Source of the DNA: Heliocybe sulcata
Lineage: Eukaryota > Basidiomycota > Agaricomycetes > Gloeophyllales > Gloeophyllaceae
DNA length: 61,698 nt
Direction: 5' to 3'
NCBI GenBank assembly: GCA_004369045.1
Contig: ML213520.1
Location: forward strand, 570,037-631,734
The position numbers and the translations under genes are program-made. Positions 3,882-58,968 of this stretch are shown here, piece by piece (position 1 is the stretch's first letter; each line of letters starts with the position of its first letter). The notes beneath the pieces are model-generated. The model ran no database searches and was not told where the DNA came from. It was given only the letters and a program-made list of their open reading frames with translations.

Positions 3882-3893
3882 CACACCCAGAGG

Positions 3894-6967: not shown

Positions 6968-7020
6968 ACTGGACTTGTCCGGGAACTCTGTATAGCGGCT
7001 GGGAACGAGACTAGATAGAA

Positions 7021-8163: not shown

Positions 8164-11100
8164 ATGGCTGGCCAACCAACCGACCAGGACACGCTCATCG
8201 ACGAGGTGCGAGGCAGGCTGTATATTCTTATGTTGGGTCTAATCGGGAGTAGAGCAAACTGGCAACTGAGAATGGCGACATATACCTTTTTACATGGCTA
8301 TCCGACCTCGACAAGTCACTGGCGTCCATGCCCGCTGTCAGTCTTCCCGACTTAATTTCGGTTCTTCCCTGACCATACTGGCTGCTTGACAGGATGAGCT
8401 GAAGTCTCACCAAGGCGAATTCGAAGCTACGTTGATCAAGGTTATCTCCGGGTCCGCTCCTTACCCCCCTCCTGGCCGCCCCTTGCGCAACCTGGTCGCG
8501 CGATGTCTCATATCTTTGTACTCGTTAACGGAGGCTCGGACCCTGTTTGACACACTTCAGAAGTTTATGGCGATCGTTAGCGACATGAAGGCGGTAGACC
8601 GAGATACAAGTAGGATGTCAGTACGTCCTGTCCACTCCTACTTACCTACGCCCAAATAGCGGAATATTCACATTCTCACTCAGAGCAGCGTTGTACTGTG
8701 TGGGGGAACTTATGCTTAAGTTCGGTTCCCAGGTGAGTGCCGAACGTCGTCCTGTTGCGTCTACACCCTCAGACGGTGCTCGTTCCAGGTCATGTCCTTC
8801 ATGGCCGAGATAGGGACGGTTACGATCAAGACCTACCGTTCTTCTTCTGTAAGTTGCATCCTCCCATGTATGCAAGTTGAATTCATTGGCATGCATGATT
8901 CTCCCGATAGTCTGTCTCCCTTCGTACTCATGCCCTCCTCGCATTGCGCAACGCCCTTCTGTCCGCGCGTCGAGCAGTCCCTGATCCACTGGCGCGGGAT
9001 ATCCTTAAGCAGATGCGAAACGGCTTAAGTGACAAAGCCTTGCCTGTCCAGCGAGCCGCAGCCGAGGTACACTCATTGTTCCTATAACGTATCCGATGCT
9101 TACACGCCGGTGACCACGATATTCTGACTTTAGGTATTAATGACTATGTATTCCTCTGGAACCGACATTCGCGCCCAGTCAGACATCGAAGCCGTCGTTC
9201 AAATTTGTACCAGATCCCTCGAGTCCGCCGATCAACTCACCCGGCGCTCCTTGGCGCGCTTGGTAGGGCAAGTGCTCACGGCGTCGAAGCCACCATCCCC
9301 GCCTCCTGCCCCTGCGAAACCGTCACAACCCGGTGCAGAAGACGACGATTCAATTGGCCCATCCGCCGCGGGGAGCGTCGACACGGAGACTCTGAAGACA
9401 GTCCTGGAGCCCGGGGAGATGTTTAGCTTGATTGCTGCCCAGTTCAATAAACCGAATACCTCTAGGAAGACTAAGATCGGTCTCTTTGACTTCTACTGTA
9501 GTCTGATCACTGCTCTTGGGCCTGCTTTTGTGGACTCTGACTACTCCCTCATCGTCTCCCACTTCGTGACTGACATCATCTCTCACCCACGTCCTACCGC
9601 CCCGCAGTCCTCGTCGGCCAGATATGACGAGCTGTTGTTGCGCAAGCTTGTCGGAACAGTTCTCCATGACTTAGTCGGAGTAAGGATGCTCTCCGAACAA
9701 GGCCAGATTTCAGCCATCCAAGAGCTGGCCAGTAAGTATCTCAAAAGGTGGCCGGCTATGATGCCTGGTCAAACGGAGCCCAATAGTCAAGTGTTAGTGT
9801 GTGTTCTGAATGAAGTCGGTGCTTTATTGGGGGTGTTGGGAAATGCACCGACTCCGGTACAAGTGAGTAGTGTTCTGTTGCAGAAGTCGTTAACTTCCAC
9901 ATATTTTTTCATATGATGAACTGACAACTGTGCACTTCTTAGGATGCTCTAGCTGAACCCCTGATGACACTGTTATCTCACCCGAGTCATGCAGTCCGCA
10001 TCAGCGCTGCCTGGGCCCTGCGGCGCTTTTGCGAGTCGACGCCCATTCAGCTCGCAAAGAGTCTCCTCAACCTGATCGACCACCTCACTCGCGATCTCGC
10101 TTCTCTGCCAGTTCCTTCTTCCGCCTCTCCTACATCAACAGCAGATCGTGGCGCTCGCGCGCTCGGCCACGCCGCCGCCGTCTCTGCCCTGGTTTCGCTT
10201 ATTCCAAGACACCCGCTGTACCTCTCCTATGACCTCGCGGCGAAAGTGCTCGACACCGCTATTTCGTTGCTCAAACGTTCTGGAGAGCATGAAATATCCG
10301 TAGCTGAGCCTGAAGTGGAGATAGCGTGGACTTGCATCGCAAGTCTGATGTCTCTAGGACCGAACTTCGTGAGAGGCCACTTGCCCCAACTGCTTGTGCT
10401 GTGGAGAAACGCGTTACCGAAACCCACGAGCAAGGATACCGCGACTGCCACGGGACGTAGTGCAGCAGAATGGGCGTTCCTCATCCATGTCAGGGAGAGT
10501 GCCCTCGGTGCGATCTGCTGTTTCTTGAAGAGCAACTCTCCGAGTCTGGTGACGCTGGACGTAACGCGACGGATCTCTTCGCTCCTCACAAATGCCCTTC
10601 TGTTTGCGAATGCGTATGCGAGACAGAACGTCACGGAGCTTTTGGAGCAGTACAGACTACTGGGGAGGAAAGGCCTGGGCTTGCAGTCAAGAGAGGCCCT
10701 GTTGCGAAGGAGGGTATTTCAGTGTTTTGGCGCTTTGGGACTTGGGGCAGTTGCCGAAAGCACCCAGACTACGTTATTGCAAAGTGCAATAGGCATATTT
10801 GCTGGTCCGGATTACGGGGGGACAGGAGTGCAGGGGGCAATTGCAGCTAGTGCGGGCGGCTTCACGTCCGTATGGCAGAGTGCAGATGGGATCGCCTTTG
10901 GAGTTACGGGCATCGAGATTGGTAGGGATGGCGAAGACAGTGGTAAGGGGGCGGACAGGCTGAATAGGGACACTGTGGAGGTGACGGTTGACGATCTGGT
11001 ACGCGTCTTCAGCGACAGGTTTATTTGCTGGTTACAGTCTGAAGAGAGATTTGTAGCACATGAAACCGTTGCTCGGATCCTACGAGTACGATCCTCTCAT

Positions 11101-38143: not shown

Positions 38144-41100
38144 TCACTTGGTGGTACCAATCAGCGGGTGACAAGGGCTTCGCTTCCTATAGTTCAGGTC
38201 AGGGTTTTGTCGGTCAGAGTCATCCTCAACAACGTCCGGTCTGTACTGATCTGTGATGTCGAGTTCCATGGCAGAGTTTACTGAAGTCTCTGCTGTACTG
38301 CCTTCAGATTCGCTGGATGGCCCGGTCCTATCGACAGAACAAGTCCCGCCAGATGAAGAAGTCGTTGGACCAGGAGGCAGCATCGTACTAGATCCAGAAG
38401 GTGAGCCGATTCGGCTGTCAGGAGACCTGCCGTGAGTCTCTGCATCTTCTAGGTTAGGATTTGCCTGGCGGGAGCATCGTCGAGCCCAAGTCTCCTCATC
38501 CTCGTACAGTTCCTCGATCTCTTGATCGTGCGCTTGGCAATGTGCATCTTGGCGGGCATGAGCCTCCTCGCTGTCGTCTGGATTGCTCTCATCCTCACCC
38601 GCGCTCTTGGCATCAGCGTCGTTTGGCGTATCCTCCCAGCCAGTCGGGTTACCATGCTCAAACCAGTCGCTGATGTGGTCGATGTACATCTGACGGAGTT
38701 CATCCCACCACTTCTTACAGATCATGAAGTCAAAGGGTGCGAGTGATGGGGGTGCATTGGACACCCATCCCGTGGTGTTGATGCGAATTCCGGTGAATCG
38801 TTGCTTATCTGTGTCCGAAGCGAGTTCCCACCACAATTTGTCGAGATCGTCAATGATTTCGGCATGCTTCAGTGGCGCGATAATGTTGGTGACAGAAGAG
38901 CACAATGAACGTAAGTACTTACCTGCCTGGAGCTCCAGCCTTGTCTTACTCGTTCCCACAGCTTCAGGTTATTGAAACGCGCGGCGGTCATACCAGGCGC
39001 ATCATGAGGCATGCCTGCGGCACGCCCCATACGCTGCCTCCACTGCTCTTTCGACTCATTACTCCCCTTCTCCGGGCTTGAAACGTAGAGCGGGAGCCAG
39101 TCCACCTCAAGTAAAGGCAGTGGATCACGGCCTGTACGTTGCTCGTACTGAGGTGCGATACCACGGAGGCGATGGCAGTCCTGACATCGGTGAGCGAAGA
39201 GTAACATGTTACTTGGGGAACCACTTACTGCAACTCTTCGCGCTAGACGGCGGCTTTTTGCTTGATTTGCTAGCCTTCGAGTGCCATGATCTGTTGGGTC
39301 TCTTGCTGCTCGGGCCTGCACTTTGAAACCGTCCCATGCTTTCTTGGCCAAAGCTTTGATTGTCTGGGCATTGAAGTACACAGAAGGATGCCGGAGCTCG
39401 TCTTCTCTTTGGTTGGGATCCTGGCCACTATCAGTATTGGTAAGCTTCAACCATCGGTCAAACTCACCTCAAGTTCTTCCATCAATAGGCTTGCGACACG
39501 GTCAAATATTTCCTGATTGACGTGATGGGTGCTACGAACAGAGAAATCTGGTGTGTAATAATCTTCGCCTGGTGCCGGACCGTCTCTGATCTCATCAGCA
39601 TGGGGCCAAGGGGCAGACTCCGTAACACCGCATATCTTGCGGAACTTGCGGCGTACGTGTTTCTGGTGAGCATGAGCTAACTTCATTGAGAATCACGATG
39701 TAGCATTTACACACCGCTAGGATGAGCTTCGCTGCTCATCGAGGTTCATTGAGGCCCTCAGCTGATTCAGTGAGCTCTTTCCAGCATCTAACACCCATAT
39801 GATCACTATCAGTGCCCGAAAATACAGGCTGGGCTCGACCGTCTTCAAGTGCTCGTATCTTGCGGGTCTTGGCCGCATTTTGTCGGCCTTTTTGGGGCTG
39901 CTCCCTCCGCCTGATGTAGGTGTGTGGATAACTAGAAGGACAGCGTGATTCGGCACGCTCAGAACCCATGGTAGGGCACCAGTCTGTGGAGGGTAAGTCA
40001 CTTAGACGGATTTGGTTTTCTGTGAGGACTCGCCATCATCTTCTGCTGCTGCAATGTGACGGCCACGTCTCCATGGGCTGATTTGTCTTGTGTCAGAGAA
40101 TTCACCCTCAGTACCGTCGCTAGTGTTGCGACCGCGCTTCCTCATGTCGGAGGTGAGTAGCCCCAGTCTGATATCAGGGATAATTGATCAGTACGTATAC
40201 ACAGATATTTAGAAATAATAGGTCCGACCTGTGGTCCCGTTCCCGTTCCCGCTCGCATCCACTGCGGCGTTCCTGTTCGCGCTCCTGTTCGCGTGCGTGC
40301 ACCCACATGTGTTCACGCTCACGCTCCTGTTCACGCTCTCATTCCCGCCGCTCTTGTTCCCGTTCCCGCTGCCTCTGCTGTTCATGCTCTCGTTCCCGTC
40401 GCTCTTGTTCCCGTTCACTCTGCCTCTGCTGTTCACGCTCTCTTTCCCTCTGCCTCTGCTGTTTACGCTCTCTTTCCCGCTCCTGCTGCTGCTCTCTTTC
40501 CCGCTGCCTCCGCTGTTCCCGTTCCCGCTGCCTCTGCTGTTCCCGTTCCCGCTGCCTCTGTTGCTCCCGTGCCCGCTGCCTCTGCTGTTCCCGCTCTCTT
40601 TCCCGCTCCTGCTGCTGCTCCCTTTCCTGCTGCCTCTGCTGTTCACGCTCTCGTTCACGCTCTTGTTCATGCTCTCGTTCCCGCTCTTGTTCATGCTCTC
40701 GTTCCAGCTCTCGTTCACGCTCTCGTTCCGGCTCCTGCTGCTGTTCCCCCTCGCGTTGCTGCTGTTCCGGCTCCTGCTGGCCCTCTCCTGTGTGCTCTTG
40801 AGCCAGCTCCTGGCGCAGCTCTTCAGGCTGGTCCTGCCCTTGGTTTGGCACTGTGCCATGCTCTCGTTTCCGACCAGTTCCCCTGAAATTTGGTATCTGC
40901 ACTCAGTACATTGCTCGCGCTGACGACTGCACTCGTACCTGGTTCTCTGGCTATTCCGACCCGAGCGCTGGACATTTCGGCCTCCCGTCCGGTTGCCAAC
41001 TGGCTGGACTGGCTGGCTGCTTCTGAGAACCAGCAGTACGGCGCTCATCAGCACGAGGCTGTCAGATGCGAAGAAAGAGCCTTACTGTTGGTGCATCAGC

Positions 41101-41672: not shown

Positions 41673-42476
41673 CATGGAAGAGGGCAATGAAGATAGGTCT
41701 CATGTGCTCTTTTGAACCAGAAGTATGCCGACCTCAGCCTCCTGCCCTTGGTGTCCATCACTGCTGACCTGTGCATGTTCAGCCACCTCATTCTGCAGCA
41801 TCTCAGATGATGACCTCCTGTACTGGGCCAGCAAGGGCGAGGAGGTGCTGAATATGAGTTTGCATGCAGCCATAGGTCTGCTGGAGAAGATAGAGGAGGG
41901 CATGCTTAAGGTCCTTGAGATTGAGCATGCCGGTGCTTATATGGTGGAGGCAGTTTTGCTAACAGTATCCATATCGACTCTATGATCACTTCACTATGTT
42001 GTGCATTCTTTCCTGTAACATCTGGACTTATACATTATATATAATCTGTAATTACAGACTTGCATTTCACTTCTGTTTACCTTTTATGTTCCATTTGTCA
42101 ACCCAGCCAGCCTTACATATGAGATCTCATTCATCTGACTCCAAGTCCTTCAGTACTCCAGATTATTGGAATGCTACATAACAGAAAGATGCAAATTGCA
42201 GTAGAGGTAGGTATTTGGGATGATGAGAGGTGGCAAAGGCGCAAGAGGGCATGCCTCAAGAGGAAACAGGATCTATCGTGGAAGCAGGGTGATTGAGAAC
42301 ACGCGTGTGGTATGTGGGGCCAGTGAGACTTGTACAAGGCCCTTGCGGCAGGTGCGAGCAGGAGAGCAGTGTGTGCATGTCAATGTAAGTTGCATGGTCA
42401 CCAAAGGAGTATGTTTCAATTTGAGCAGACAGCATCAGGAGATTGAGTGCCTGGGCAGTCTGGTAGATGAGCATGG
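41673..42476. other. decayed transposon DNA right of the CACTA element
   Basis: AT-rich sequence with short open frames on both strands (for example + 41725-41985). No domain is recognised. By position it should include the N-terminal part of the second Tnp2-like transposase gene, but the sequence is too broken to show it. Confidence 0.4.
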
Positions 42477-43191
42477 ATGATTGTGGTTGGCATCCTGCAT
42501 CAAGAACAGGCACTCATGCACACCATCGAAAGAGACTGGCAGATGCAAGAAGTAGATTTGTGGCAGGCCACTCCCCTCAGTGCGGAGTGTTGTTGCCATC
42601 AAAAGAGGTCAAAGGGTGGTTTGAATGGCACAAAAGTAGCCCACATACCCTCCTGTCTGACTGCATGCACTTGACTCAAATATTGCAGGATTGAATCATC
42701 CTGATCTTCCAGCAACAACCTTCACACCTTCTTGGGCACAATATCAAGAGGATCTAGCAAGACTCATGGCTTCCAAAGACCAAAAAGACTATACTGAATG
42801 CTGTCTCAAAACAGGTATCTGCAAACCATCCATCTTTAGTGGTCTACCTTGAAGTCTTGGCTGCCCAGATATCTTTGGTATTGACATCATGCATCTACCT
42901 GCACTTAATATTCCTGATCTTTTTATCCATCTCTGGAGTGGAACACTGCAATGTGATCCACGTGATGATGTTTCCACTTGGGAGTGGGCTGTCCTTCAGG
43001 GTGAAGTCTGGGATGATTGTGGGAGGGCAGTTGAAGCAGCAGCCAAGTATCTCCCCAGCTCCTTCAGATGACCACCTCGTAATCCTGTGCTGAAGATAAA
43101 CAGTGGATACAAGGCCATTGAATGGCTGAACCTGTTCTATGGTATTGGCTCAGGCATACTCCATGGTGTACTCCCGGAGAAGTTCTGCCGG
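42477..43191 (+). pseudogene. second Tnp2-like transposase, 5' fragment before the LTR insertion
   Basis: Coding fragments of a Tnp2-like transposase different from that at 33-37 kb. The clearest block (about 42795-43191) gives IFGIDIMHLPALNIPDLF, WSGTLQCDPRDDVSTWEWAV, and, after a stop, PPRNPV and GYKAIEWLNLFYGIGSGIL and LPEKFCR. These are hallmark segments of an agaricomycete transposase family. The frame stops at 43191, exactly where the LTR retrotransposon begins, and resumes at 47769. A few in-frame stops and shifts show that the gene had already begun to decay or has done so since. Confidence 0.7.
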
Positions 43192-44267
43192 TGAAAGGCA
43201 CGAACACATGACGAAACCCGCACAGACCTAAAGGGGAACAACAACCACAAAGCATAGCACCAATCCCTTGGTGCTAGATGGCTGCGAGGTCTGGGGCGAC
43301 GAAGGGTATAATAGACGTTCGGAGGGAGTCAATGGTAAGGATAGGGCTGAGACCGCCAACCACAGGGCGACGTATACTCTAACGAAAATGCGATCAAAGC
43401 TAAAAATAGAATGCGATCAAAACGCGACGGCGCGCGACATTGCGCGCTCTAGAAGCGGAATACGCGCGCTAACTAAAAATAGATGTAGACGCTAAAAATG
43501 GAACAACGCGAAAACGGGAAACTCTGGTGTCTGGCGGGACACAGACAGCAGCAGTGACGGAAATCGGGAACAGCAGCGCAGCGACGAGAGACAGTAGACG
43601 CAGTAAGCTCAGAGATATAAGAGACGCAGAGTTGAGAGGGGAACAGTAGAATTGCGCGGGGAGGTAGTGACCTAACCTAACCTAAGGCCGAAGCTAACCT
43701 AACCTGGGGTACAGTGTCGGGAAGTCCGACTTAAGTATACTACAGAGAAAATCAAATAAACTGAGTACCATATGCTAACAAACTGAAACTACTCCTGAAA
43801 AACGATCCACCACAAGCCTCCGACAAGGGGAACAATCTCTGTACACTACAGTGACCATGTGCAAAGGTGGGCGCATACCAAAAAGGGCGTGGGAACGCGC
43901 ACAGCGCCGCATCAAAAAGCACTGGTGGGCCGTGTGGAGGCCGCGCCGGTGCCCGCAAGGCACATGCAAAGGCACTGCCGAGGCAGCGCAGCACCGCCGT
44001 GCAACACTGCCGCTGTCGGGAGGGTATTGCCACACCGCCGTGATGGCTGGGATGAGCACGCGCGCTTACGTAAACCAGTGGAGCGGTTGTCGAATGAGAT
44101 CGGGGAGTCGTCGGGAATTGCCGGAAATAGTGAAAAGTCCATGGAAACTCGAGTTTTGCTCGTAGCGCAACGCCGCGGATACGCTCACTCTCGCACAGAG
44201 CGTGGGAATCTGCGCAAATAGCCCGAAAATGCGTTTTCGGAGACCAGAACCACGTAGAGGCGTATCA
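43192..44267 (-). repeat. 3' LTR (copy A, short variant, 1076 bp)
   Basis: Shares its first about 150 bp (+ strand: TGAAAGGCAC...TTCGGAGGG) and a loose match over its last about 90 bp (…GGCGTATCA) with the 1.5-kb LTR copies, but the middle is unrelated or strongly diverged. The middle includes three CCTAA units at 43671-43685 and a further pair at 43694-43704. A 9-bp hairpin TAGCACCAA/TTGGTGCTA lies at 43255-43276. Confidence 0.8.
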
Positions 44268-44483
44268 CCCCCCTCGGACTCAAATATTGACTGTCCTCAG
44301 TCAGCGCCGAAGGTGCGCGCGACCGATGCGAGGCGTGGGAAGCAGCGCGCGACACAGCGGAGACCTGCACTGCACGGGGAGACTCGGGCGACGGCGGAGC
44401 GATGTCGAGCGCGAAGGAAATGAAGGAATGCGACAAGAAATGATGAAAGTGATGGGTATCGGGTTGGAGATGGAGCGCATGCC

Positions 44484-46082
44484 TCAGAGCGGCTCCGCCG
44501 GCTCTAGCGCTGCAAACGCCGAGACGAAAGGAGCACCTAAGAGCACCGAGTATGCCGCATCACGCACGACATGCGCCTGGACGATGAATGAGTGGCCTTC
44601 CACAACAATCGGGATGTTCCGAGCTAGCCCAAGTGACGGATCGCCTCCTACGCCTGCGCACGCTGCAAGCTGCACTCCGGGATCGAAGGCAATCGATAGC
44701 GCGTCGCACAGCGCTTCCGAGACCATGTTCACCGACTCGCCAGGGTCGACAACACACTCTACCGCTTGAGGCATGTGAAATGTTGCGGACAGTCGATAGG
44801 GAGATCTCGACGCTTTCGCGATAGTGTACGTCGCGGCGCTGGTGTCGGAAGGGATGGGAATAGCATCGGACATGCTTAGCGACGGCTGCGGGGCGGTGTG
44901 GGACACTGTGCGCGCGGTACGAGTGTGTGGCGGAGTGCTGGGTGTGGCAACATCGCGCTCTGGCTCTTCCGCTCCGAAGACATGCGCGCGTTCTGGTACG
45001 CTGCCGCGCGACTCTTGCGCTCGCTTCGATGCTCGAGACGATGGAGCACGTGGGTTCTGAACGTTCGTACGCTCGCGCACGGGGTAGCGCATGTGCCAGA
45101 TATGCATCCGCTCATGCATTGTTGCTCCTGGAAGGCTCCGCGGGATGAAACGACCACTCGGAAGCACTAAGCGCCCCTCCTCGTTGCGCTTGCACATGCC
45201 CGACGCAATGTCCGACATCGCGAGGGGGCAGCGCGTGATGCGACAACCTCTGGCGCCGCAGTAATGACACTCATCGCTGTGTAATGACTCGAGGACGGGT
45301 GGTGGAACGAGCACTGATGGTGCAGGATCGTGTTTCTGTGCGGATGGCGACGGCGTGGGAATAAGCGGAGCGACGCGCTGCGTAACGGTAGCGATGATGT
45401 CGTCGATGAGAGCGGGAGAGATGGCAGGCGAAGCGGGAGATGGTGTTTGCAAGTGCGCGGAGTTGTCGGGAAGCAAATGTGCGAGCGCGGGATGTCGATA
45501 GATGTCGGCGCTCTGCAAGACGAACAGCGCGGCGTCGTAGACGTCGCGAAAGGGGTGTACGCGGTGTGGAGAGTGGCTCGGGTGGATGATCTGCAGGCAG
45601 AGGAACGTCCGACCCCATAGCGAAGGTCCAAAAGCGCTCGAGAATGCGCGATCGAGCTCCTGCTCCGAAATGAAGCTGTGAGAGCGCAGTGGCTGTGCGA
45701 TGCGAACGAACTCCTGATGGAACTGACTCAGCGCTGCTACATCTCGCATCTCCTCTTCCGATCGCTTCCTGACCACGCGCTCCAAATCCTCAACTCGCCA
45801 ACGATGCTCCGGCGCGATCGTCGGGTACAAACGCTGCACCGCGGACTTGAACACTGCATACGCACACTCAGCGCGGAACTCCGAAAGTGAGCGCCAAAGC
45901 TCCTCGACCTCGAGCGGGATGTACTTGACCACCAAATGCTTCTTCGTGAAGTCCGATTTCGCGCTTTCCAGAAACGCGCCGAAAAGGTCCTCTACGTCCT
46001 CGAAATATCGATGTAGCGACTCGGGGTGCGTGGGATCAAAGAGCGGAGCGACCGGGTCATGTCGGCTAGGTAGTGTCGCCAT
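44484..46082 (-). CDS. Gag-protease polyprotein of the LTR retrotransposon
   Basis: Start at MATLPSRHDPVAPLFD, the form in which Gag of related mushroom gypsy elements usually begins; an open extension to 46268 enters the LTR. Residues about 1-180 are the Gag capsid-like part (SLHRYFEDVEDLFGAFLE...). A zinc-knuckle-like CHYCGARGCRITRC follows near residue 290, where the usual His is replaced by Cys. After a Ser/Pro/Arg-rich linker the last 110 residues resemble a retropepsin (ECVVDPGESVNMVSEALCD, then YSVLLGAPFVSAF). The catalytic Asp is kept but Thr/Ser of DTG/DSG is Pro. The frame ends 216 bp from the 3' LTR. It is 532 residues without a stop, so recent. Confidence 0.75.
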   Translation of the reverse strand: MATLPSRHDPVAPLFDPTHPESLHRYFEDVEDLFGAFLESAKSDFTKKHLVVKYIPLEVEELWRSLSEFRAECAYAVFKSAVQRLYPTIAPEHRWRVEDLERVVRKRSEEEMRDVAALSQFHQEFVRIAQPLRSHSFISEQELDRAFSSAFGPSLWGRTFLCLQIIHPSHSPHRVHPFRDVYDAALFVLQSADIYRHPALAHLLPDNSAHLQTPSPASPAISPALIDDIIATVTQRVAPLIPTPSPSAQKHDPAPSVLVPPPVLESLHSDECHYCGARGCRITRCPLAMSDIASGMCKRNEEGRLVLPSGRFIPRSLPGATMHERMHIWHMRYPVRERTNVQNPRAPSSRASKRAQESRGSVPERAHVFGAEEPERDVATPSTPPHTRTARTVSHTAPQPSLSMSDAIPIPSDTSAATYTIAKASRSPYRLSATFHMPQAVECVVDPGESVNMVSEALCDALSIAFDPGVQLAACAGVGGDPSLGLARNIPIVVEGHSFIVQAHVVRDAAYSVLLGAPFVSAFAALEPAEPL

Positions 46083-46232
46083 AGTCGGAGTGCGTCGGGA
46101 GGTGTCGCGCAAGCAGCGGGTGGCGTCGGAAAGAATAAACAAAAAATGCGAAAATGCGAAATATAATTGTGGAGGCTTTTTCAGCCTCCGAAAAACATCG
46201 AGATGGAAAGCGCAGGCCCTAAGAAAACTCCC

Positions 46233-46249
46233 CCTCGCGGTGGGCTCCA
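46233..46249 (-). other. putative tRNA primer-binding site
   Basis: Three bases inside the 5' LTR end, the minus strand reads TGGAGCCCACCGCGAGG. The leading TGG is complementary to a tRNA CCA end, and AGCCCACC could pair with an acceptor stem. The tRNA is not identified. Confidence 0.55.
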
Positions 46250-46252
46250 AAA

Positions 46253-47764
46253 TGAAAGGCACTAACACGCGACGAAGCCCACACAGACCTAAAGGGGAAC
46301 AACAACCACAAAGCGTAGCACCAATCCCTTGGTGCTAGATGGCTGTGAGGTCCGGAGCGACGAAGGGTATAATAGACATTCGGAGGGATAGGGTAGGGTA
46401 AGACGTATAGGTGGGGCTAAAGGTAGTTTGGTGCAGACCAGTCGCGGTCGTGCGGCAGTCTCAATTTGATACGCTCACTTCGGGAGACACTTGTATCGTA
46501 CTCCGCTTGACGATGCGATTCTAACGCACTCGGTGCGCACTTGGTGCGATAACTTCTCGGGCTGTCGTGGAGCGCGCGCTTGTCGCACGGTCTCGGAGGG
46601 AGCGGAATCAGGATCGCCTACACAATGCGATCGAGGCACGCATACAATGCCGTCAGTGCGATGTGCGATGCTTCTAAAACTCGAGACAACTCGAACGCGG
46701 TTAACAAGATGGGCGGCGCATGAGGCCGGACTTAAGAGAAACTTTGAAACGAAAGTGCTCAGTTGTCGCGCGCGCTGTCAGAAGGTTCGCGTAAACTCTG
46801 GGTGAAGTCGGAAGACCGTCAAAAGCCTTATACCCTTAGAGGAAACTCTTGCGCCGAGAACGAGATACGAAGGGTGAAGATAACTTGTATTTTCAAGACC
46901 AAGAGAAAGGATTTAAGTACAAACGTCGCCACTACACTACTCGCAGTCACACATGAAGAGAAAGCCGTCTTCCGCAAACCATGTCCTGTGTTGCGTGCTC
47001 GTCCACAAGGCGCGCACCCCCCCAACCACCCTGTACCTAACTTTCCTACCAATCCTATCGTCTCCTCGCAGCGCGGTACCTGCTTGAGTACGCTCGTAGC
47101 CTAGCTTAAACCGCGTGACGAGTCTTGTCCTCGCGCCACACCGTACGAGACCTTGCGTCGACGCGGTGGTGCCACAGTAACTTGAGTGGCGGGCGTAGTT
47201 GCCGAAGAGTGGCGCGGTTGTGCCGAAAGGGGTAGTGGGTCGGGCGAGTGATGCGTCGCGCGGAGGGAGCCGAAACCAATGATGGAGGCGGTGAGTTGAT
47301 GCGTACGGGCGCCCTGAGCATGCAACCCGATGGGCGGCGAAGGCGATGATGGGAATGACAGGCGGGACATTGAGTGGGATGGTCGATCTAGAATGACTCG
47401 ATGGCCTAGACTCCTCGGGACCGACCGGACTGTGTTGTGCCGAGTTGCTGTTGACTCAGTCGGAAAGATCCGGAGGCCGAGGCTTACGCGTCGTTGTGGC
47501 CGAGTCCAAGAATAGTTCCCGAGACCAGAATAGATCAGTTTGCATTGAGTCCCGCTGAATAGAGAGAGTGTCGCCGCGCTGCGGGGAATAGAGTCGTGGG
47601 CTCGCTGCCAGAGTGAATAGTCGGGGTCGCCAGTATAGTCGTCGCTCACCTTCCAAGGAGCTGTCAGCGGCGAGCGAACGCACAATAGAGTCGCAACATC
47701 GCCGCGATCACAAAACAACCCTAAAATGCATTTTCAGAGTGCAGAACCCTGATTGGCCGTATCA
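46253..47764 (-). repeat. 5' LTR (copy B, 1512 bp)
   Basis: Ends TG...CA. It has exactly the same length as copy C (53579-55090) and is closely similar to it along the whole length, the differences being mostly transitions. Copy D (57261-58764) is an inverted third member. A conserved hairpin lies at 46316-46337. No ORF is conserved between copies. Confidence 0.85.
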
Positions 47765-47768
47765 CCGG

Positions 47769-48798
47769 CACTACTGCAGACTTGTCTATGATATATGCCT
47801 ATGAGCATCGTATATCTACTGACCAGATGCGACATGGTCATCAAGCACTACTAGAGTTTGAGCATAAGTTTGAAGAACTATACCACCAGTGGAAGGATTC
47901 CCAGATTCATATGGTGTGCCCATCACTACATACTCTCACTCATATCTTTGCAGAAACACTTCAATGGGTCCAACACCTGGTTATTCTCACTACACAATTG
48001 AGAATGCACTGTGCAGATTAACCCCAGAGGTGCAGCAGCAGAGGAAGGCAATGGCAAATCTTTCTAAATGTGCAGTACACAGATGTCAGGTAAATGGTCT
48101 CAAAGCCATGATACCTGATTTGGAGCCTCCCGAGGACTATGTGTCAGAGCAGGATGTTGACTTGAGTGGTGGATATGTCATGCTCCATGCAAGAGAGAGG
48201 TCAAAGCGGGTTGTCCCCCCTACCCAGGTGCAAGCTATTGCATGCTTTTTGGAAGAGCATACTCTCAAAGGAACAACATATAGCCCTCAGCCACTTGTCC
48301 GGTGATGGGCTTGCCTCTGCCTTTCTAATGGCCAGATTGCACAATCACAATGGAAGGAAGTGGAATGCTGTAGAGACTCAAATCTAAGGATAACAAGGAA
48401 TGCAAAGGTGAGTGTATATTTCATAGCAGAGCAATATATCATCTAATGCAGTATGTAGCTTTAACTTAATGGCAAAACATTCTTTGCAGAAGTCTACTAT
48501 TATTTATTCTCATTATTCCACCTGGCACAAGTGCACACCCTGTTGCACTTATTTCACTGTACACTCAACCCGACACAACCCTATGTGAAATATCCTATGA
48601 TACTCTATGGTCTTGCTGTATACTGGAGATTTGAGGCTTCATGTTGTTGATGTGAAAGTGATTGAATCAGTGGTTGCAATGGTACCACATACACCTTCTA
48701 TCCCAGGTGAAGAACATGTTATTGAAAGGCTCTTTGTTGTTGAAAAGCCAGGACTTGATATTGCTACTATTGGAGGTTTCCAGGAGGAAGATGAGTGA
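47769..48798 (+). pseudogene. second Tnp2-like transposase, 3' fragment after the LTR insertion
   Basis: Continuation of the gene broken at 43191. After CCGG the frame gives HYCRLVYD, HGHQALLEFEHKFEELYHQW, then in shifted frames NALCRLTPEVQQQRKAMANLSKCAVHRCQVNGLKAMIPDLEPPED, GGYVMLHARERSKRVV and, near the end, VVDVKVIESVVAMVPHTPSIPGEEH with LFVVEKPGLDIA. These blocks are in the order known for this transposase family, up to its C-terminus. The stop TGA is at 48796-48798. Several frameshifts (near 47990, 48300 and 48600) make it a pseudogene. Confidence 0.7.
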
Positions 48799-50023
48799 GA
48801 TGTAACAGTATAGAGACACCTTTATTCTTTGCACCAACATCATGACTCAAGCTTAGAATACAGAACATTGCATGGAAAACAGCAGCAATCACAGTAGGAC
48901 AGATGACAAAACCAGATCATACAGTCAGCTAGTGACGAAGGTGTGAAAGTCTTTCTGCAGGTGTCCCCACCTAAAAAATATGTATATGATATCTAGTTGT
49001 GCATGGAGTAACATGACATACTGAAGTAATCATTGCCCACTCTAGTATCTCCTCACAATATTTGAAGCTCTCATCAAAGTCAGCCAACTTCTGGAAGATA
49101 ATTGCAACATCGGCATGGGATTGGAGGAAGCTTGCTGTTTCACCAGGCACCCATGTTGCCCACTGAGGAGTATTGAAACAATCAAGAGAGCCAGCTCATT
49201 TCTCCACAAGCAGTAAGATACTTGACTGTTGCTCAGAAGGAACCCCAGATTCAGCAGGAACAGAGATGAAGATATAGAGCCAGTAGGTATCCACATCTGC
49301 AAAGACAGCATTGGGATTGGGGTCCTGAAAGAAGTTAACTTATTATGCATAGCAGCAGAAGACTAGTATATATGAGCTTACTTCCTCTTTTTCCACAGAT
49401 AATTCATATATCACTTGAGTACAAGGGTCTTCGGGACTGGGACTAGAAACACAGTCCCCAGCAGATGCTGATACTGACTTAAGCCAGAGATCCCTGAAGC
49501 CCAGTTTTGGCAGAGATATCTGGGTACCGCGGTTCTGAGGCATAGCAAGCAGGCCTAGCATATAAATGCTGCAAGCAGAGCTGAATAGACTTGACACAAT
49601 GCATGACAAGAGCATAATATCTTGCTTAGATCAGCACACCATGTGGTGTGCATATATGCTGGCATTGTGTTGTCTTTCCTGCTATGGTGCCCTCTGTGCA
49701 GCTACATCTCAGACAGATATGTCGGAGGACCCATTCTGGCTTGGTACCAGAGATTTTGCTATGGACTCAAGCTCTCAACTCAGAGATTCTGTGACTCTAG
49801 CTTCTGATCAGCCTCTACTTTCTCAATGTGAACAGACTCTGTGGATGGACTCTCGCAAATTCTACCATATCAGCTACTCACCTTTGCTGCAATCTGGCAT
49901 AATTATTCAGAGTCTTCAGCAACACCTTCACAACAGGCTAACTACAGCCACCATGATCTGGATGACAGTGATCTTCGAGTGTATCCCAGCTCATAAACTT
50001 ATCAGTTACAGCAAGAGAATGCC
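48799..50023. other. decayed transposon DNA between transposase remnant and accessory ORF
   Basis: AT-rich. Open frames on the minus strand (49042-49350, 49343-49615) and on the plus strand (49566-50159) carry no domain that I recognise. They may be remnants of the element's accessory gene. Confidence 0.35.
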
Positions 50024-50896
50024 ATGCTCCATAAGGAGTTGGCTCACCTCAATAGTGAACTGTCTGGGCTCAGGGAGTCAGGTGGAAATGGGGTCCTTTT
50101 ACTGGTCCCACCTACTGTTGATGAGGAGATGCTGTTGCCAGAGAGGAAGAAGCAGCTAGTTTGGACTGCATATGACTGGAAGGTATTATGGGAGGAGCAG
50201 AAGAAGGATGGGAAATGTGATGCAACAGACTTCTCCAGAAGGAAGGGGGAGCAAGGTAAGACCCGCCAGAACAACAACAATGAGAATGTAAACCTCCACT
50301 ACATTGTGAACCTCAATGGTACACCAGTCATGGGTAGCCAGTGCCGAATAATCAAGGAGGCTCAGCGGCAGTGGTTCCAATCATCTCATCAGCATCATCT
50401 TGCACCAGCATTGTGGTTTAACCTTCCTTTCAAGCTCTTAAATGAGTATTGGCAAGTCCTCATCCAGGTACTCCCACAAATCAGCTATTGCTACGGAAAC
50501 TGGAAGGCTGACACTCGCATCACCTGTGTATAGCAACTGGTATCAGACCCATGTTGCTGACTCCAACTCCTTGGACTCTGGTGACAACCATTGACATTGA
50601 GCAAAACACAAGCACTCGAAGATATCTTGCTGCTCAAAGCACTCAGATGACTTGGGCGATGAGGTATGAGGTATGACATTGGAAGAGCCACAAGCATTCA
50701 AAAAAGTCATGGCGCTTGAGGCATTCGGACTTGGATTCTGGCTCAGGCTCTGATTCTGGCTCAGACTCGGAGGCAGGATATATGCACAGTAAAAAGAGCA
50801 AGAAAGGGAAGAAGTCAGTGATGGACAAAGGCAAGCAGAATACCGCCGAGAAGGCTAGCACAGTTGAGACAGAGGTGCTGCTGCAGGGAGACAGAT
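50024..50896 (+). pseudogene. accessory ORF remnants of the second Tnp2-like element
   Basis: The first frame (50024-50533, 169 codons) begins with a short heptad-like LHKELAHLNSELSGLRES, then a basic stretch and a C-terminal block ending QISYCYGNWKADTRITCV. This layout, a coiled-coil start and a final short block with NWK, is common in the second gene of mushroom Tnp2 elements. After a stop, a Ser/Gly/Asp and Lys-rich tail (50716-50896) probably belongs to the same protein. No biochemical role is known to me. Confidence 0.4.
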
Positions 50897-51016
50897 CAAT
50901 GTCTTACCCACTGTAAGTAAGGTTTTCTGTGGTCTGTTCATCTTTCTCTGCTGAATGTATGGGGGACAGTGCCAGCATTGTGATAACTACTGGTCAGAGG
51001 CAAGGTAAGTACAGCC

Positions 51017-51718
51017 TTGTTCTTGTCAAGGCTACTCAACAGGCTGTCAGCTCCAGGACTTGACGTGCCTCCTGCTCCACTGATCATACTGAGCAAAATA
51101 ACTCCAATTGCACCGATGATGCTACTTGACATGCCGCTGGATCAGGGACTCGGCATGCTGATTGTACCAAGCAAAATGACTACAACTGCACCTGACCTGC
51201 TGATGACTCCAATCATGCTGGGCATGTTCTCGACAGCACTACTAAACACACCACTGGACCGGGGACTCAGTGTGCCACCTGCTATATTACTCAAAGTGCC
51301 GCCAGCTCTAGGGCCCATATTCTTGTCAACACTACTCGACATGCTGCAGGATCAGGGACTGTCCAACATGCCAGCTCTAGGGCCCAACATGCCAACAACT
51401 ATGACTGCACCCGACCCGCTGACAACTCCAATCACACTGGGCATATTCTTATTGATGCTACTCGACATGCCGCAGGATCAGGAACTGCTCAAAGTACCAG
51501 CTCTAGGGCCTGACACACTGCTAACTTCAGGTCTCAACATCCTGGCTAATCTGGCAATCGATGCACCATCTGCCCCACTATCTGGCGGGTTCTCATCAAC
51601 TCCAAGACTCAAAACACTGCCACCTCCAAGCCTCAACACCTTGTCATCTTCTGGGACTATACCTCATACATCCTTAGTGTCTGTAAGAATATATCTGGTT
51701 CATAATATTCTTGCTTGA
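51017..51718 (+). repeat. coding-like degenerate tandem repeat
   Basis: An open frame of 233 codons made of imperfect repeats, units of about 200-220 bp with a shared core such as ACTCCAATCA.(A/G)CTGGGCAT and CTACTCGACATGCC. The units restart near 51107, 51186 and 51407. The product would be Leu/Pro/Met-rich (for example LLDMPQDQEL), which is unlike a normal folded domain. It is probably part of the old element. Confidence 0.5.
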
Positions 51719-51721
51719 CAT

Positions 51722-52009
51722 TTGTACAACTCATGGTCTGCCATAGCTGCCAGCACCACTTTGAAGAAGCCGTGTTGCACCTGGACTGTCCCGAATGAAG
51801 TGAACACTAGGTATGTTCATGCTCAGTATCCAGCAGGGTTATCATACACACTAACATATACTATACCCAGGAACAAATGCACTCATGATTGGCAAGTGAA
51901 AAACCCAGAGGAAATACAGAAGGAGTTTGTGGTGTATTTTCATGCTCTCAATGGAGATGCAAAAGTGGGTGAGGGTTATCTGTCTCATATATGGGTAGCT
52001 TGTGATTGA
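51722..52009 (+). pseudogene. short ORF remnant, unknown
   Basis: A 95-codon frame immediately after the repeat region, with a CCTWTVPNEV start and an EFVVYFHALNGDAK end. No family is recognised with confidence. It resembles fragments of the Tnp2 accessory proteins in style only. Confidence 0.25.
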
Positions 52010-52999
52010 CTGTTCCTGGTGTTGATACAGACTTGGAAAGAGCAGGCCCAGGCCATGGTATGTTGCATTGGGCTGCATCTGACATAGATTCTATGACTGA
52101 TACATTGTTTACAGAAAGCTGGGGCATTGAAGGAGAATCTGCCTGCTATGAAGGTGCATCACTCAAGCTTATTTTCTCAGTCATGTAACTGAGTGCAAGC
52201 ACAGAGATGACTGGCATATTGGTGGGAGCTGGGAGATAGTGGAGGACCAGCAATAGGAGCGTGGTTTGGCTGGGGACCAGGGGTGTTAGGATGGGATGGC
52301 TGGAGGGCTGGAGGGGGACAATGCCTGTATGAATAGTAAAATAAATGAAGTAGTTTGATAACAAAGGATTCTAAATGAACTCGAGTACAAATATGATTGC
52401 AATGCTAGTGAGTGTGCTGGCATCATTTAGGATCTTTCAATTTTGCACACAATAACACAAGAAAAGTAATGATTGACAATGATATTGATTGATAATAGAT
52501 GAACTTGACTGATGCTCGCAATCTTTTAAAGCTGAAAATCGGTAACTTTTGTCAATTGAGAGCTTTCAGTATCATTGCTTTTCATTGTGGTATGCTAAAT
52601 GAAGTATACCAAAGCTAAATGATATTTAGAAATGTCAGTCCTTACTGGGAGTCACGGCTCACTGCACACAAAATAGGAAGGGTAGTTACAAGTCCTGAGT
52701 TTATGAAGGATGAGTCTTTGCATGGGTTTTTTGGGTGCTTTGCCAAAGATTTTGGCTGTGGGAATATGGATGCTGAGTAATCAGAGTATGAATGTCTTTG
52801 TAATCATCAATACACTGAAATGAAACCCTGCTCCTATCGAGACTACAAGCCGAGTATCAAACATGTTTTGTAGTGGTCCCAACCACTATTTGTTGTTGGT
52901 CTCCACGAGGCTGACTCCTCAATTTTTGAATAGAAGCATATGAGAATATGTTGTGTAACTTAATAACTGTCAGCACATATAGCTAGTCTTAGAAGAAAA
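52010..52999. other. AT-rich non-coding stretch
   Basis: No gene or repeat unit is recognised. It separates remnants of the second Tnp2-like element from the gypsy element to the right. Confidence 0.5.
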
Positions 53000-53218
53000 G
53001 CTTGTTTCATGGCAAACCAGCACAACCTTCCCTATTGGGAAGTGTTCCTTCTGGATCAGGAACATTCTACAAATCTCGGGAGCATTGGGAGGTAACTTGC
53101 TGGATACCTGAGTCGTCAATTGTTTCAGACCTATGAGACAATCACTAGCACTTGATTCAACTCATAGTCATACCTTAGTAAGTAGCTAGTAGGCCATACC
53201 CAATCCCTGAATGTCTGT

Positions 53219-53230
53219 AGTATATAAAGG
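53219..53230 (+). promoter_or_regulatory. TATA-like promoter of gypsy 5' LTR
   Basis: AGTATATAAAGG is followed by a cytosine-rich, leader-like sequence and lies about 300 bp before gag, as expected for an LTR promoter. It is inferred from position and sequence only. Confidence 0.45.
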
Positions 53231-53517
53231 AGTGCACTGCAGCACTGGATATCAGTCCTTTTAACACATCAAATCTCCCTTCTATGAAGGTTTCTAAGTT
53301 GAACTATTGTACTAGGGCATTGTGCAACACTACTCTACTACAAACTGCTTAAGTATTGCTACAGCTACTTGAGTATCCATACTATACTATGCTCATATGA
53401 ACTGTTTGTTGTGTCAGGTAAGTGATTCTATTGCTGTCACACAACATTGGTGGACACTACCAGAAATCCAGTAGTGTTGCTGCATTTTTAATTAACATCT
53501 ATTGAATTGATTAGATA

Positions 53518-56500
53518 TGTCTACTCAATCCACTTCCCCTCCCACCCTGCCTAATCCTGAGCAGCTTGGACTATCCGTTGAAAGGCACTAACATGCGACG
53601 AAACCCGCACAGACCTAAAGGGGAACAACAACCACAAAGTGTAGCACCAAACCCTTGGTGCTAGATGGCTGCGAGGTCTGGGGCGACAAAGGGTATGATT
53701 GACGTTCGGAGGGATAGGGTAGGGTAAGACGTATAGGTGGGGCTAAAGGTAGTTTGGCGCAGACCAGTTGCAGTCGTGCGGCAGTCTCAATTCGATACGC
53801 TCACTTCAGGAGCCACTTGTATCATACTCCGCTTGACGATGCAGTTCTAACGCACTCAGTGCGCGCTTGTAGTGATAACTTCTCGAGCTGTTGTGGAACG
53901 CGTGCTTGTCGCACGGTCTCGGAGGGAGCGGATTCAGGATCGCCTACGCAATGCGATCGAGGCATGCGTACAATGCCATCGGTGCGCTGTGTGACGCTTC
54001 TAAAACTCGAGACAACTTGAATGCAATTAACGAGACTGACGGCGCACGAGGCCGGACTTTAAGAGAAACTTGAAAACAAAGGGCCTACTTGTCACGTGCG
54101 CTGTCGGAAGGTTTGCATAAACTCTGGGTGAAGTCGGAAGGCAGTCGAAGGCCTTATACTCTAGAGGAAACTCTTGCGCCGAGAACGAGATACGAAGGGT
54201 GAAGATAACTTGTATTTCCGAGACCAAGAGAAAGGGATTAAGTACAAACGTCGCCGCTACACTACTCGCAGTCAAACATGAAGAGAAAACCGACTTCCGC
54301 AAGCCACCTCTTGTGCCGCGCGCTCATCCACAAGGCGCACATCACCCCAACCACCCTGTACCCAACTCTCCTACCAATCCTATCATCTCCTCGCAGTGTG
54401 GTGCCTGCAGGAGCACGCTTGTAGCCTAGCTTGAAATGCGCGACGAGTCTTGTCCTTGCGCTATGCCGTATGAGACCTTGCATTGACGCGGCGGTGCCAC
54501 AGTAACTTGAGTGGTGGGCGTAGTTGCCGAAGAGGGGTGCAGTTGTGCTGAAAGGGGAAGTGGGTCGGGCGAGTGATGCGTTGTGCGGAGGGAGCCGGAA
54601 ACCGATGATGGAGGCGATGAGTTGATGTGTATGGGCACCCTGAGCATGTGCCCCAACGGGCAACAGAGGCAATGATGGGAATGACAGGCGGGGCATTGAG
54701 TGGGATGGTCGATCTAGAATGACTCGAGGGCCTAGACTCCTCGGAACCAAACGGGCTGTGTTGTGCCGAGTTGCCGTTGACTCGATTGGAAAGATCCAGA
54801 CACCGAAGCTTACGCGTCATTGTGGCCGAGTTCAAGAATAGCTTCCGAGACAAGAATAGATTGTTTTGCATTGAGTCCCACTGAATAGAGAGAGTGTCGC
54901 CGTGCTGCGGGGAATAGAGTTGCGAGTTCGCCGCCAGAGTGAATAGTCGGGGTCGCCAGTATAGTCATCGCTCGCCTTCCAAGGAGCTGTCAGTGGCGAG
55001 CGAACCCGCAATAGAGTCACAATGTCGCTGCGATCACGAAACGACCCTAAAACACATTTTCGGAGCACTAAACCCTGATCGGCCGTATCACTGTGTCTAC
55101 TGTGGAATCCCCAATAATTCCATCTCCTTCTTCCACTCACTCCATGCCACCCAACCCTGATCCTCCCTTGGATCCTGATGACCTCATGGAGAGGTCGGTA
55201 TCCATGGACCCTTCTGATATAAGGAACCTACTGGCCCTTCAAAACCTAGGTGCTGGTAGAAAACATAGTCTCTACAAACAATCCTTAATGTACAAGGTTG
55301 ATTTTGACATACACAGATTTTGGCCTTGCCAAAAGATTCTACCTCACCCTGCTGTGCTCGGACACATGCAGCAGTGGGTTTTAAGCATCTAGGATATTCT
55401 ACTCTGTGTGACTTACATTACATTACATGTTTGCAAGAAACCCATACCTTCACTGAGGAAGTTGGCTATTTGAGGCATGCAATTCTTCAACCCTTTATCC
55501 TACAAGTTAAGGATTATCCTCTGGGATATACTGTGGATTTCCACATGTACCAAGAACTCACCAAATGTTTGAAGAGTATTTATCTGTGAGTGAAGCCATT
55601 AATCGAAGCTAGAACTTGCAAATGCACCCTGAGCCAGTTTGGAGATGGAAGGGAGAATCACACCTCTTATTTGATCACAATGACTTTGAAATCTTAGGAA
55701 CCTGCTTTTGCAAGGAATTTGAGAGTTTCCTGGGGTTTGTCGGTGCAAATTGCAAGCTAGAGAGTTTCCCCACTAATTGGGATTATGCTTCGGCTGCTCA
55801 GCACATAGAATGCCTACCTGCTGAAGGCACTGTACCCTCTCCGAATAACCATCAAGTGCAAGTTTCACCATGGAACAGGAATCAGGAATCAGAAAAATCC
55901 TCATGGCATGAAGGCAATGCAATGATAATGAACGCACCTGAAGAAGAGGCACTCGACTACCTCTCCAACAATGAAGAACTTCCAAAGAAATACGACCTTG
56001 CTGCACTTGGCATGTAACTGCCATTGACTCTACCAGTCATTGTCCCAGTAACCATCAGATGTTTTAGGAAATTAGAGACACTCAGAATGAGCAGCTACGA
56101 GGGAACTAGCTTTGCTTGGGGAAGTCTGGCTCATACTTACACTCACCCAGCTGTTCATACTCAGTCACACCAAATGACAGAGTTACTCAGACCGACTCCA
56201 GCTGCAGCTATTAACAGCACAAGCACTTTGCGGAGGTGTTCTGCACCTATCCTACCTGATGGAGGAGACTCATCAGATGATGATGAACAGGGGAATGGTG
56301 AACCTCACTGAATATTCCAGCCTCTCACCATCCACCATTCAGAAACCCTCCTACCAGCTGTGAACCTCAACAGCCACTGACAAGTAATGACTCTAGCTTT
56401 GATTGTACCACTAGGACAGAAAATGTGCTGAGGTCTGACACAAAATATGAAATTGAAATTGTACTGGTATGGGATGGTGACTCTGACACTCTGGCACAAT

Positions 56501-57195: not shown

Positions 57196-58968
57196 TGTAA
57201 GGGCTCCCCTTCAGCCACCTTCGCTTTCAGCCACTGTTACATGATGTCACGCTGATACAGTGATATGGCTGATCAGGGTTTAGCACTCCGAAAACACATT
57301 TTGGGGTCGTTTCGTGATCATGGCGACGTCGTGACTCTATTGTGCATATGCTCACCGCTGACAGCTCCTTGGAAGGCGAGTGATGACTCTACTGGCGACC
57401 CTGACTATTCACTCTGGCAGTGAACTTGCGACTCTATTCCCCGCAGCATGGCAACACTCTCTCTATTCAGCGGGACTCACTTCAAAACAATCCATTCTAG
57501 TCTCAGACACTATTCTTGGACATGGCCACAACAACGCATAGGCTCCGGTGGCCGGATCTTGCCGATCGAGTCACCGGCAACTCAGCACAACACATCCCAC
57601 TCGGTTCCGAGACGTCCAGGCCCTCGAGTCATTCTAGATTGACCATCCCACTCAATGTCCCGCCTGTCATTCCCATCATCACCTCTGCCGCGCATGGTCA
57701 GGGTGCTCATATGCATCAATCACCGCCTCAATCATCGGTTTCTGGCTCCCTCCATGTGACGCATCACCCGCCCAACCCACTTCCTCTTTCGGCAGGCCCA
57801 TACCCCTCTTCTGCAACTATGCCCGCCACTCAAGTTACTGTGGCATCGCCGCATCGACACAAGGTCTCATATGGCATGGCGCAAGGACAAGACTCACTGT
57901 GCATTTCAAGCTAGGCTACGAGCGTACTCATGCAGGCACCGCACCACGAGGAGATAATAGAATTGGTAGGAGGAGTCAGGTACAGGGCGGTTGGGGTGAT
58001 GCACACCTTGTGGACGAGTGCGTGGCACAGGAGATGGCTTGTGGGAGTTGGGTTTCTCTTCGTGTTTGACTGCAAGTAGTGTAGCAGCGACGTTTGGACT
58101 TAATCTCTTTCTCTTTGTCTCGAAAATACAAGTTATCTTCACCTTTCATATTTCATTCTCGGTGCCAGAGCTTCCTCCAGAGTATAAGGCTTTCGTCTGC
58201 CTTCTGACTTCACCCAGAGTTTATTGTGAACCTTCCAACAGCGCGTGCCGCAAGTAAGTCCCTTTAGTTCGAAGTTTTCCTAAGTCCGGCCTTGTGCACC
58301 GCCTGTTTCATTGATCGCTTTCGAGTTCCTTCAAGTTTTAGAGTTACATGCAGCACACCAATGGTGTTGTATGCACGCCTCGATCACATTGCATAGGAAA
58401 CCCCAAATCCACTCCCTCCGAGTCTGTGCAACCAGTGCACGCTCTGTGACAGCTCGAGAAGTTATTTTTAGAAGAGCACACCAAGTGCATTAGAATCGTA
58501 TTGTCAAGCGGAATACAATACAAGCAACTCCCGAAGTGAGTGTATCGAATTGAGACTGCTGCATGACCATGACTGGTCTGCGCCAAACTACCTTTAGCCC
58601 CACCTATACGTCTTACCACACCCTATCCCTCCGAATGTCTATCATACCCCTTGTTACCCCAGACCTCGCATCCATCTAGCACCAAGGGATTGGTGCTACA
58701 CTTTGTGGGTGTGTCTCCCCTTAGGTCTCATTTTGCGGGTTTCATTGCATGTTAGTGCCTTTCAATGCATCACGCGATGTGGCCACTTTGTGTTTTGCAC
58801 TTGTTGAAGGGCTCTTTAACCTGTTCCTCTTTGGAAGTCCCTTCAACAACATGCAGGTAAGCACTTAGATATCATTAGTGGATGTATCTAGTGCTTATGA
58901 GTGCATATATTTGCTTTTGAACTCCCTTCAACAATGTGCAGCCTTGTCAGCTCACTGGTTGTTAAGGT
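57196..58968. mobile_element. insertion with TGTAAGGGCT ends and GGGAT target duplication, holding LTR copy D
   Basis: Ends are TGTAAGGGCTCCC (57196) and GGTAGCCCTTACA (ending 58968), an inverted pair matching at 12 of 13 positions. The 5-bp GGGAT occurs directly before and directly after (57191-57195, 58969-58973). Taking it out rejoins the Gag zinc knuckle GKHWD-YVCKYSKKG. TG...CA ends and the 5-bp duplication suggest a short solo LTR or TRIM-like element of about 270 bp, into which the 1.5-kb LTR copy D was inserted. The right part contains repeated CCCTTCAACAA motifs. It codes for nothing. Confidence 0.8.
57261..58764 (-). repeat. LTR copy D, inverted, 1504 bp
   Basis: Reverse-complement member of the 1.5-kb LTR family (copies B and C), TGATATGGCT at its left end and GTGCCTTTCA at its right. 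Hairpin at 58677-58698. The flanks ACAG and ATGC do not match, so no target duplication is visible. It is more diverged from B and C than they are from each other. Confidence 0.85.

Follow-up and report, generated by a model that had tools for sequence, protein, structure and literature searches.

How did a retroelement with long terminal repeats (LTRs) of two different families come to lie within a transposase gene, and what determined the spot at which it was integrated? These questions are raised by a stretch of 61,698 nucleotides of the basidiomycete Heliocybe sulcata (hereafter the window), which corresponds to positions 570037-631734 of contig C18 in a 31.6-Mb assembly of 51 contigs. A previous sequence-only reading of the window had described an LTR retrotransposon inserted in a transposase gene, with exact ends indicated by CCGG on either side and by TG...CA at the LTR termini. 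The insert extends from 43192 to 47764, starts with TGAAAGG and ends with TATCA, and CCGG is present on both sides of it. Its immediate surroundings are the following:

42700-43191, plus strand: left piece of a tnp2-type (CACTA/Plavaka-like) transposase pseudogene, in frame at the insertion and with internal stops (three-frame reading; DNA and protein matches to loci L067, L068, L069 and L070)
43188-43191, no strand: left target site duplication, CCGG (sequence)
47765-47768, no strand: right target site duplication, CCGG (sequence)
47769-48305, plus strand: right piece of the pseudogene, reading HYCRLVYDICL, a stop, and then homology in other frames (translation; matches to homologues)

The host gene confirms that 43192-47764 is one insertion event inside a tnp2-type transposase. 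The two pieces are in register across the joint, with ...VLPEKFCR up to 43191 and HYCRLVYDI from 47769. A genome search with the transposase yielded five matches, the window copy and four others, all four of which match both pieces and are gapless over the junction (VLPLPIWRHYCKLVYGV in L067 and L068, ILPLRYWQNFCRLVYGI in L069, VLPDNIWRHFCQLVSAV in L070); uninterrupted copies, the search for which the sequence-only reading had proposed as a check, are thus present in the genome. Its claim that the transposase reads through after excision of the insert and one CCGG is correct in frame across the joint, but only locally: the window copy has stops upstream, then a stop 11 codons past the joint, and its homology shifts frame. 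Because of these stops and the frame change of its own, the window transposase is a pseudogene with or without the insert. The CCGG flanks, the terminal TG...CA and the reading through had also been counted as three independent signs of the ends. The ends are indeed exact, but under the NCGN target rule set out below a coincidental match is expected for about 10% of pairs of unrelated 4-bp flanks (computed), so that the continuity of the host gene, and not the 4-bp match alone, carries the proof. A KDZ transposase, the first idea for the target gene, was dropped, as Pfam assigns PF02992 Transposase_21 (tnp2) above cut-off (E 4e-9) to the homologue L070; transposases of the tnp2 type are in keeping with a mushroom-forming fungus. 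For the window pieces scanned, which cover a later part of the protein, Pfam gave no family above cut-off.

Two features had gone unnoticed in the sequence-only reading, namely that the element is coded on the minus strand and that its ends, taken there as one LTR family, are an A-family LTR on the left and a B-family LTR on the right. In the order of the minus strand, the element is composed of:

47764-46253, minus strand: B-family LTR, the 5' LTR of the element, 1512 bp (diagnostic sites; 93% to the LTR of the relative on contig C10; solo copies elsewhere)
46249-46232, minus strand: primer binding site TGGAGCCCACCGCGAGGG, following a 3-nt spacer (complementary to the 3' 18 nt of a tRNA, CCA included)
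46082-44484, minus strand: gag-protease frame, intact, 532 aa (translation; gag homology to the C10 element)
44275-44268, minus strand: polypurine tract GAGGGGGG, adjoining the 3' LTR (sequence; compared with the C10, C27, C5 and C32 elements)
44267-43192, minus strand: A-family LTR, the 3' LTR of the element, TGAAAGG...GTATCA, 1076 bp (diagnostic sites; solo copies elsewhere)

The TG...CA ends of the LTRs, together with a primer site and a polypurine tract at their inner edges, are those of an LTR retrotransposon. The pol order of protease, reverse transcriptase (RT), RNase H and integrase is not present in this copy, which harbors gag-protease only; neither RT nor integrase was found in the insert by translation of the interior or by Pfam. 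In the gag-protease frame, a zinc-knuckle-like CHYCGARGCRITRCPL and a DPG protease motif are discernible by eye, and the Pfam family gag-asp_proteas is matched below cut-off only (E 0.05). The frame shows 35% identity over 341 aa to the gag-protease of the C10 element and, in the protease part, 31% over another 169 aa; additional gag homologues are found on C32, C38, C5, C22 and C21. At the DNA level, a genome search with the interior returned the window itself as the sole candidate (one copy in the assembly). The exception is a run of 28 bases at the primer site, common to the window and the elements on C10, C22 and C38. The primer-site match is the 3' 18 nt of intron-bearing tRNA genes at three places on C1 (L088, L089, L090); these genes are read as tRNA-Lys(CUU), and the labels given by ARAGORN ('???' or His) are taken as an effect of the intron. 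A 13-nt core of the primer site has 13 exact matches: six element primer sites, three in these tRNA genes, one in a partial tRNA-like copy adjoining one of them, and three without an ARAGORN tRNA. L088 also shows a partial tRNA-like copy on the opposite strand.

Normal reverse transcription gives two identical LTRs. A near-identical LTR pair is seen in the C10 relative and not in the window copy, where similarity between the LTRs is confined to their ends: 136 bp (93%) at one end, about 50 bp at the opposite end. To assign them, diagnostic sites were taken from reference LTRs of both families (25 A, 23 B), which make up 48 of the 51 complete-LTR rows. The left LTR is A-type at 14/15 and 24/25 of these sites; the right LTR is B-type at all 15 inner-end sites and at 21 of 25 outer-end sites (one A-type, three neither). 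An ordinary LTR pair is therefore rejected, the two LTRs coming from two families. Diagnostic sites are available to within about 11 and 7-8 bases of the LTR edges, and the B-type sites extend that far. Past the primer site, the B elements on C10, C22 and C38 read GGATTTTACAAGAC and the window reads GGAGTTTTCTTAGG. The B-type sequence ends at the primer site, which fits, without proving, a transfer between two cDNAs during reverse transcription.

The main rival to such a strand transfer is gene conversion after insertion, in which an element with two A LTRs would have had its 5' LTR overwritten by a B LTR via the homologous ends. The stretches shared by the two families offer the necessary homology, B LTR copies are numerous, and one of the 25 sites at the right end is A-type; however, the converted tract would have had to begin and end nearly at the very edges of the LTR, and the sequence past the primer site is not B. 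Gene conversion is accordingly regarded as unlikely, though as the strongest of the alternatives. With regard to the A family itself, a search was made with the end of an A LTR extended by 23 bases of interior, and 40 of its 71 candidates were scored. Besides the window there were 39 matches, which all stop at the edge of the LTR or within 9 bases past it, none of the 39 continuing into the window interior. Solo LTRs of this family far outnumber interior-bearing copies (25 complete solos were examined; an interior was found next to a single A LTR, that of the window), an excess that suggests very efficient LTR-LTR recombination.

The choice of the target was followed in solo copies of both families. 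In searches with LTR ends, 40 of 148 candidates were scored for A and 40 of 63 for B, and 30 loci were taken from each. Full-length LTR matches were required, and truncated or interrupted LTRs (e.g. L012, L017, L028, L029, L036, L038, L040, L041, L055 and L058) stand outside the table. Six of the 51 rows of complete LTRs were dropped, i.e. the window halves (L001, L032), LTRs adjoining interiors (L042, L043, L073) and L018 (damaged left end, CTTA/GCGG), which left 45 solos (25 A, 20 B); the A solo L069 came via the transposase search. An exact 4-bp duplication borders 28 of the 45, and all 28 are NCGN. These represent 13 different tetramers (CCGC five times; ACGG, CCGT and CCGG three times each; and nine others). 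Flank agreement at other lengths is rare or absent (2 bp in 3/45, 3 bp in 0/45, 5 to 8 bp in 0/45); the 4-bp duplications around other copies that the sequence-only reading had named as a test are thus borne out, and the 5-bp ones that would have contradicted it do not occur among these solos. The central dinucleotide on the left and right is CG/CG in 32 solos, CG with TG or CA in 12 and CG with AG in one, so that CG stands on at least one side in 45/45. It occupies the duplication centre in 36/45 on the left and 41/45 on the right; at 58 other offsets on each side, CG averages 2.1 and 2.2 occurrences, respectively, and never exceeds 6. Apart from the duplication itself, no base within 12 positions to the left or right is more frequent than G at +11, present in 22/45. 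Three interior-bearing elements that encode an integrase follow suit, with flanks ACGG/ACGG, ACGG/ACGG and CTGG/CCGG (C10, C5 and C32). CpG-centred integration with a 4-bp NCGN duplication is the rule of this LTR group in the copies examined.

A-family LTRs are nested within B-family LTRs at L005 and L022; at L005, the split B LTR shows a 4-bp overlap, CCGA, itself an NCGN duplication. The window holds two further solo LTRs, the second of which was not among the fetched loci and hence stands outside the 45:

53579-55090, plus strand: solo B-family LTR (L059) with flanks CCGT/CTGT, a one-base decay of an NCGN duplication (LTR comparison; flanks)
57261-58764, minus strand: older B-like solo LTR (80%) with flanks ACAG/ATGC and no duplication kept (LTR comparison; flanks)

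The bases surrounding these insertions bear on how the CpG might be recognized. The transposase flanks in the window are CpG-poor, with observed/expected (o/e) ratios of 0.20 on the left and 0.125 on the right (the adjoining 1 kb holds 12 CpGs on the left side and 6 on the right side), and the insertion nonetheless lies on a CpG. An alternative explanation holds that methylated CpG or methylated, transposon-rich chromatin is read by a reader domain or a host partner, rather than bare CpG by the integrase. This would suit the strong CpG depletion at the window site, a sign of past methylation, the decay to TG or CA at the duplication centre in 12/45, and the 7 of 45 solos whose flanks fall below 0.5. 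The median flank ratio of the 45 insertions is 0.77, however, and they are not restricted to depleted DNA; moreover, a chromatin reader alone would not fix the cutting register on CpG, and no Pfam chromodomain was matched in the frames of the relatives that were scanned. This explanation is considered improbable, and targeting of methylated DNA as the sole cause is not supported by the flank ratios. Depletion is a property of the transposon-rich right part of the window in general (o/e 0.13-0.21 at 41900-43191 and 47765-53578; the ratio in 1-9000 is about 1.0), a pattern that cytosine methylation in the past would be expected to leave. A tandem array of ~24-base units lies at 40389-40766 (12 overlapping copies listed); its composition is strongly skewed, the AT skew in 40001-41000 being -0.54.

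The element itself is CpG-rich (o/e 1.26; median of the 45 solos 1.2). A CpG-rich element in a CpG-poor gene fits an insertion younger than the decay of the host gene, unless the LTR families are simply CpG-rich. The window B LTR is at most 93.6% identical to any other B copy, its private changes being mostly G>A and C>T (36/45), and the window A LTR averages 94% identity to its siblings. Since neither LTR is close to any sibling, the window copy is not very recent.

A chimera or collapse in the assembly, joining an A element to a B LTR, could be imagined from the repetitive nature of the LTR families and from the masked or gapped stretches of the assembly; it is very unlikely, as a single transposase gene, split in register, supplies both outer flanks, the two copies of the duplication agree and the element is free of N. 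Two unrelated solo insertions or fragments side by side would account for LTRs of two families and could share CCGG by chance at the rate given above, but this idea is rejected as next to impossible, since neither half has a duplication of its own (CCGG/CCCC at L001, AAAA/CCGG at L032), primer site and polypurine tract stand at the correct inner edges, and the transposase is continuous over the outer flanks, barring a misalignment of the homologues.

Possible sources of the missing enzymes are present in the same genome. The element at C10:731150-742801 is bounded on either side by a B LTR (97.6% over 248 bases and 98.1% over 157 bases; the second LTR is partly masked) and flanked by ACGG/ACGG. 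Its order is gag-protease, an RT-like stretch (PF00078 at E 7e-4, which is below cut-off), then RNase H and an integrase H2C2 zinc domain, with a frame change in the integrase core. Relatives of this core occur on C27 (92%), C5 (88%) and C32 (88%), in addition to two distant ones at 36%. The C5 and C32 elements carry a third LTR family and are flanked by ACGG/ACGG and CTGG/CCGG, respectively; the C27 element has ACGG past its 3' LTR, and no 5' LTR turned up within the 2.5 kb that were read. On C32, the frame is open through RNase H and integrase, of which Pfam matches RNase H and H2C2, and a DD35E core and a GPY/F-like end are recognizable by eye. Among Pfam hits up to E 1, neither C10 nor C32 shows an rve core, and the C10 frames and the C32 frame show no chromodomain, the mark of a chromovirus. 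The nearest solved relatives are PFV integrase (E 3.7e-9) and Ty3 (E 7.5e-4). Open frames antisense to pol are located between pol and the 3' LTR in the C10 element (L071:9272-10000, minus; with a cysteine-rich start) and in the C32 element (L078:3-554, plus).

Gag-only non-autonomous elements are exemplified by TR-GAG, in which a gag-protease frame without pol lies between LTRs; the window element differs in being single-copy and in having LTRs of two families. With fungal Ty3/gypsy elements it shares LTRs, a primer site for a tRNA 3' end, a polypurine tract and gag-protease, and its relatives add RNase H and an H2C2 integrase, whereas the CpG-centred 4-bp duplication, the lack of a matched chromodomain, the absence of a detected RT and integrase in the copy and the dissimilar LTRs set it apart. 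In the literature, fungal LTR families are described with 4-5 bp duplications, among them CGAC and ACTT as 4-bp examples (PMC4522978), and Helenus with a 5-bp duplication (PMC10886601). On the strength of the former paper, 4-bp length alone is not new in fungi; the suggestion of the sequence-only reading that an integrase of a less common kind was at work is right as to an unusual integration habit, but the distinctive feature is the CG centre and not the length. The closest precedents found for CpG-centred integration are Ginger1 and ZAM. Ginger1 DNA transposons are reported to produce 4-bp duplications of CCGG (75%) or CCGT/ACGG (24%), and their transposase is related to gypsy integrases (PMC2836005). 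They resemble the present group in the 4-bp duplication and the CG-centred target; however, they have terminal inverted repeats and move as DNA, while here LTRs, primer site and gag, and RT-like and RNase H sequences in the relatives, are found, and CCGG, CCGT and ACGG account for only 9 of the 28 exact duplications, with different NCGN tetramers in the remaining 19. The Drosophila errantivirus ZAM integrates at CGCGCg (PMC2527525). It likewise has LTRs, and the target of its integrase is strict, palindromic and contains CG, but ZAM requires CGCG(CG), and in the 45 solos the central CG alone is fixed. Sequence-specific integration is described in a review as a trait that only errantiviruses and their derivatives have (PMC5408687). 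A literature search that left subscription journals and preprints largely outside its range gave no report of NCGN targeting by a fungal LTR element or of a single element with LTRs of two families.

The locus is probably best explained by a gag-protease-only retroelement whose mobilisation was due to an autonomous Ty3/gypsy-type member of its own group, acting in trans, with a CpG-centred integrase and with B and A LTRs brought together by strand transfer. Because no RT or integrase was found in the insert, the integrase would have acted in trans; the group of C10, C5 and C32 is the candidate source because primer site, polypurine-tract neighbourhood and NCGN duplications are common to both and the gag proteins are homologous. 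During reverse transcription, plus-strand strong-stop DNA (LTR, spacer and primer site) of a co-packaged B element would have been transferred to the minus-strand cDNA of an A element, yielding a product in which B supplied the 5' LTR and primer site, and A all that follows. The group's integrase would then join the cDNA ends to target DNA at cuts 4 bp apart with CpG in the middle, from which NCGN duplications result, and the target hit here would have been CCGG in the transposase pseudogene. That this is a Ty3/gypsy group outside the errantiviruses whose integrase itself reads CpG and cuts symmetrically, and that the copy is moreover a natural plus-strand-transfer product of two co-packaged families, is put forward more tentatively.

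Several observations weigh against this explanation. The A-type site at the right end of the right LTR may reflect homoplasy or conversion. The interior has no siblings in the assembly with which a strand transfer could be compared, and no junction of an A-family 5' LTR with its own primer site was seen in the loci examined; a pattern search for the polypurine tract pointed to six places including the window, two of which (C4:584621 and C6:812133) have A-like LTR ends and could not be read. As for the target rule, 5 of the 45 solos depart from a decay of the central CG to TG or CA, with CG on both sides or AG on one (e.g. ACGG/CCGT at L009), and no duplication is retained at 57261-58764 of the window or at L018. 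The CpG habit may also be host-wide, the control having been other offsets in the flanks of these same LTR families.

An NCGN group outside the errantiviruses, with integrase-encoding candidates in the same genome, makes the reading of CpG by a gypsy-type integrase testable and links LTR integrases with the CCGG-specific Ginger1 transposases. If the CpG address is true, the methylation-prone dinucleotide of the genome would be used as an address for integration. The two dissimilar LTRs, for their part, would record an event of reverse transcription that is rarely visible, as the normal process makes LTRs identical, and LTR divergence would be unusable for dating such a copy.

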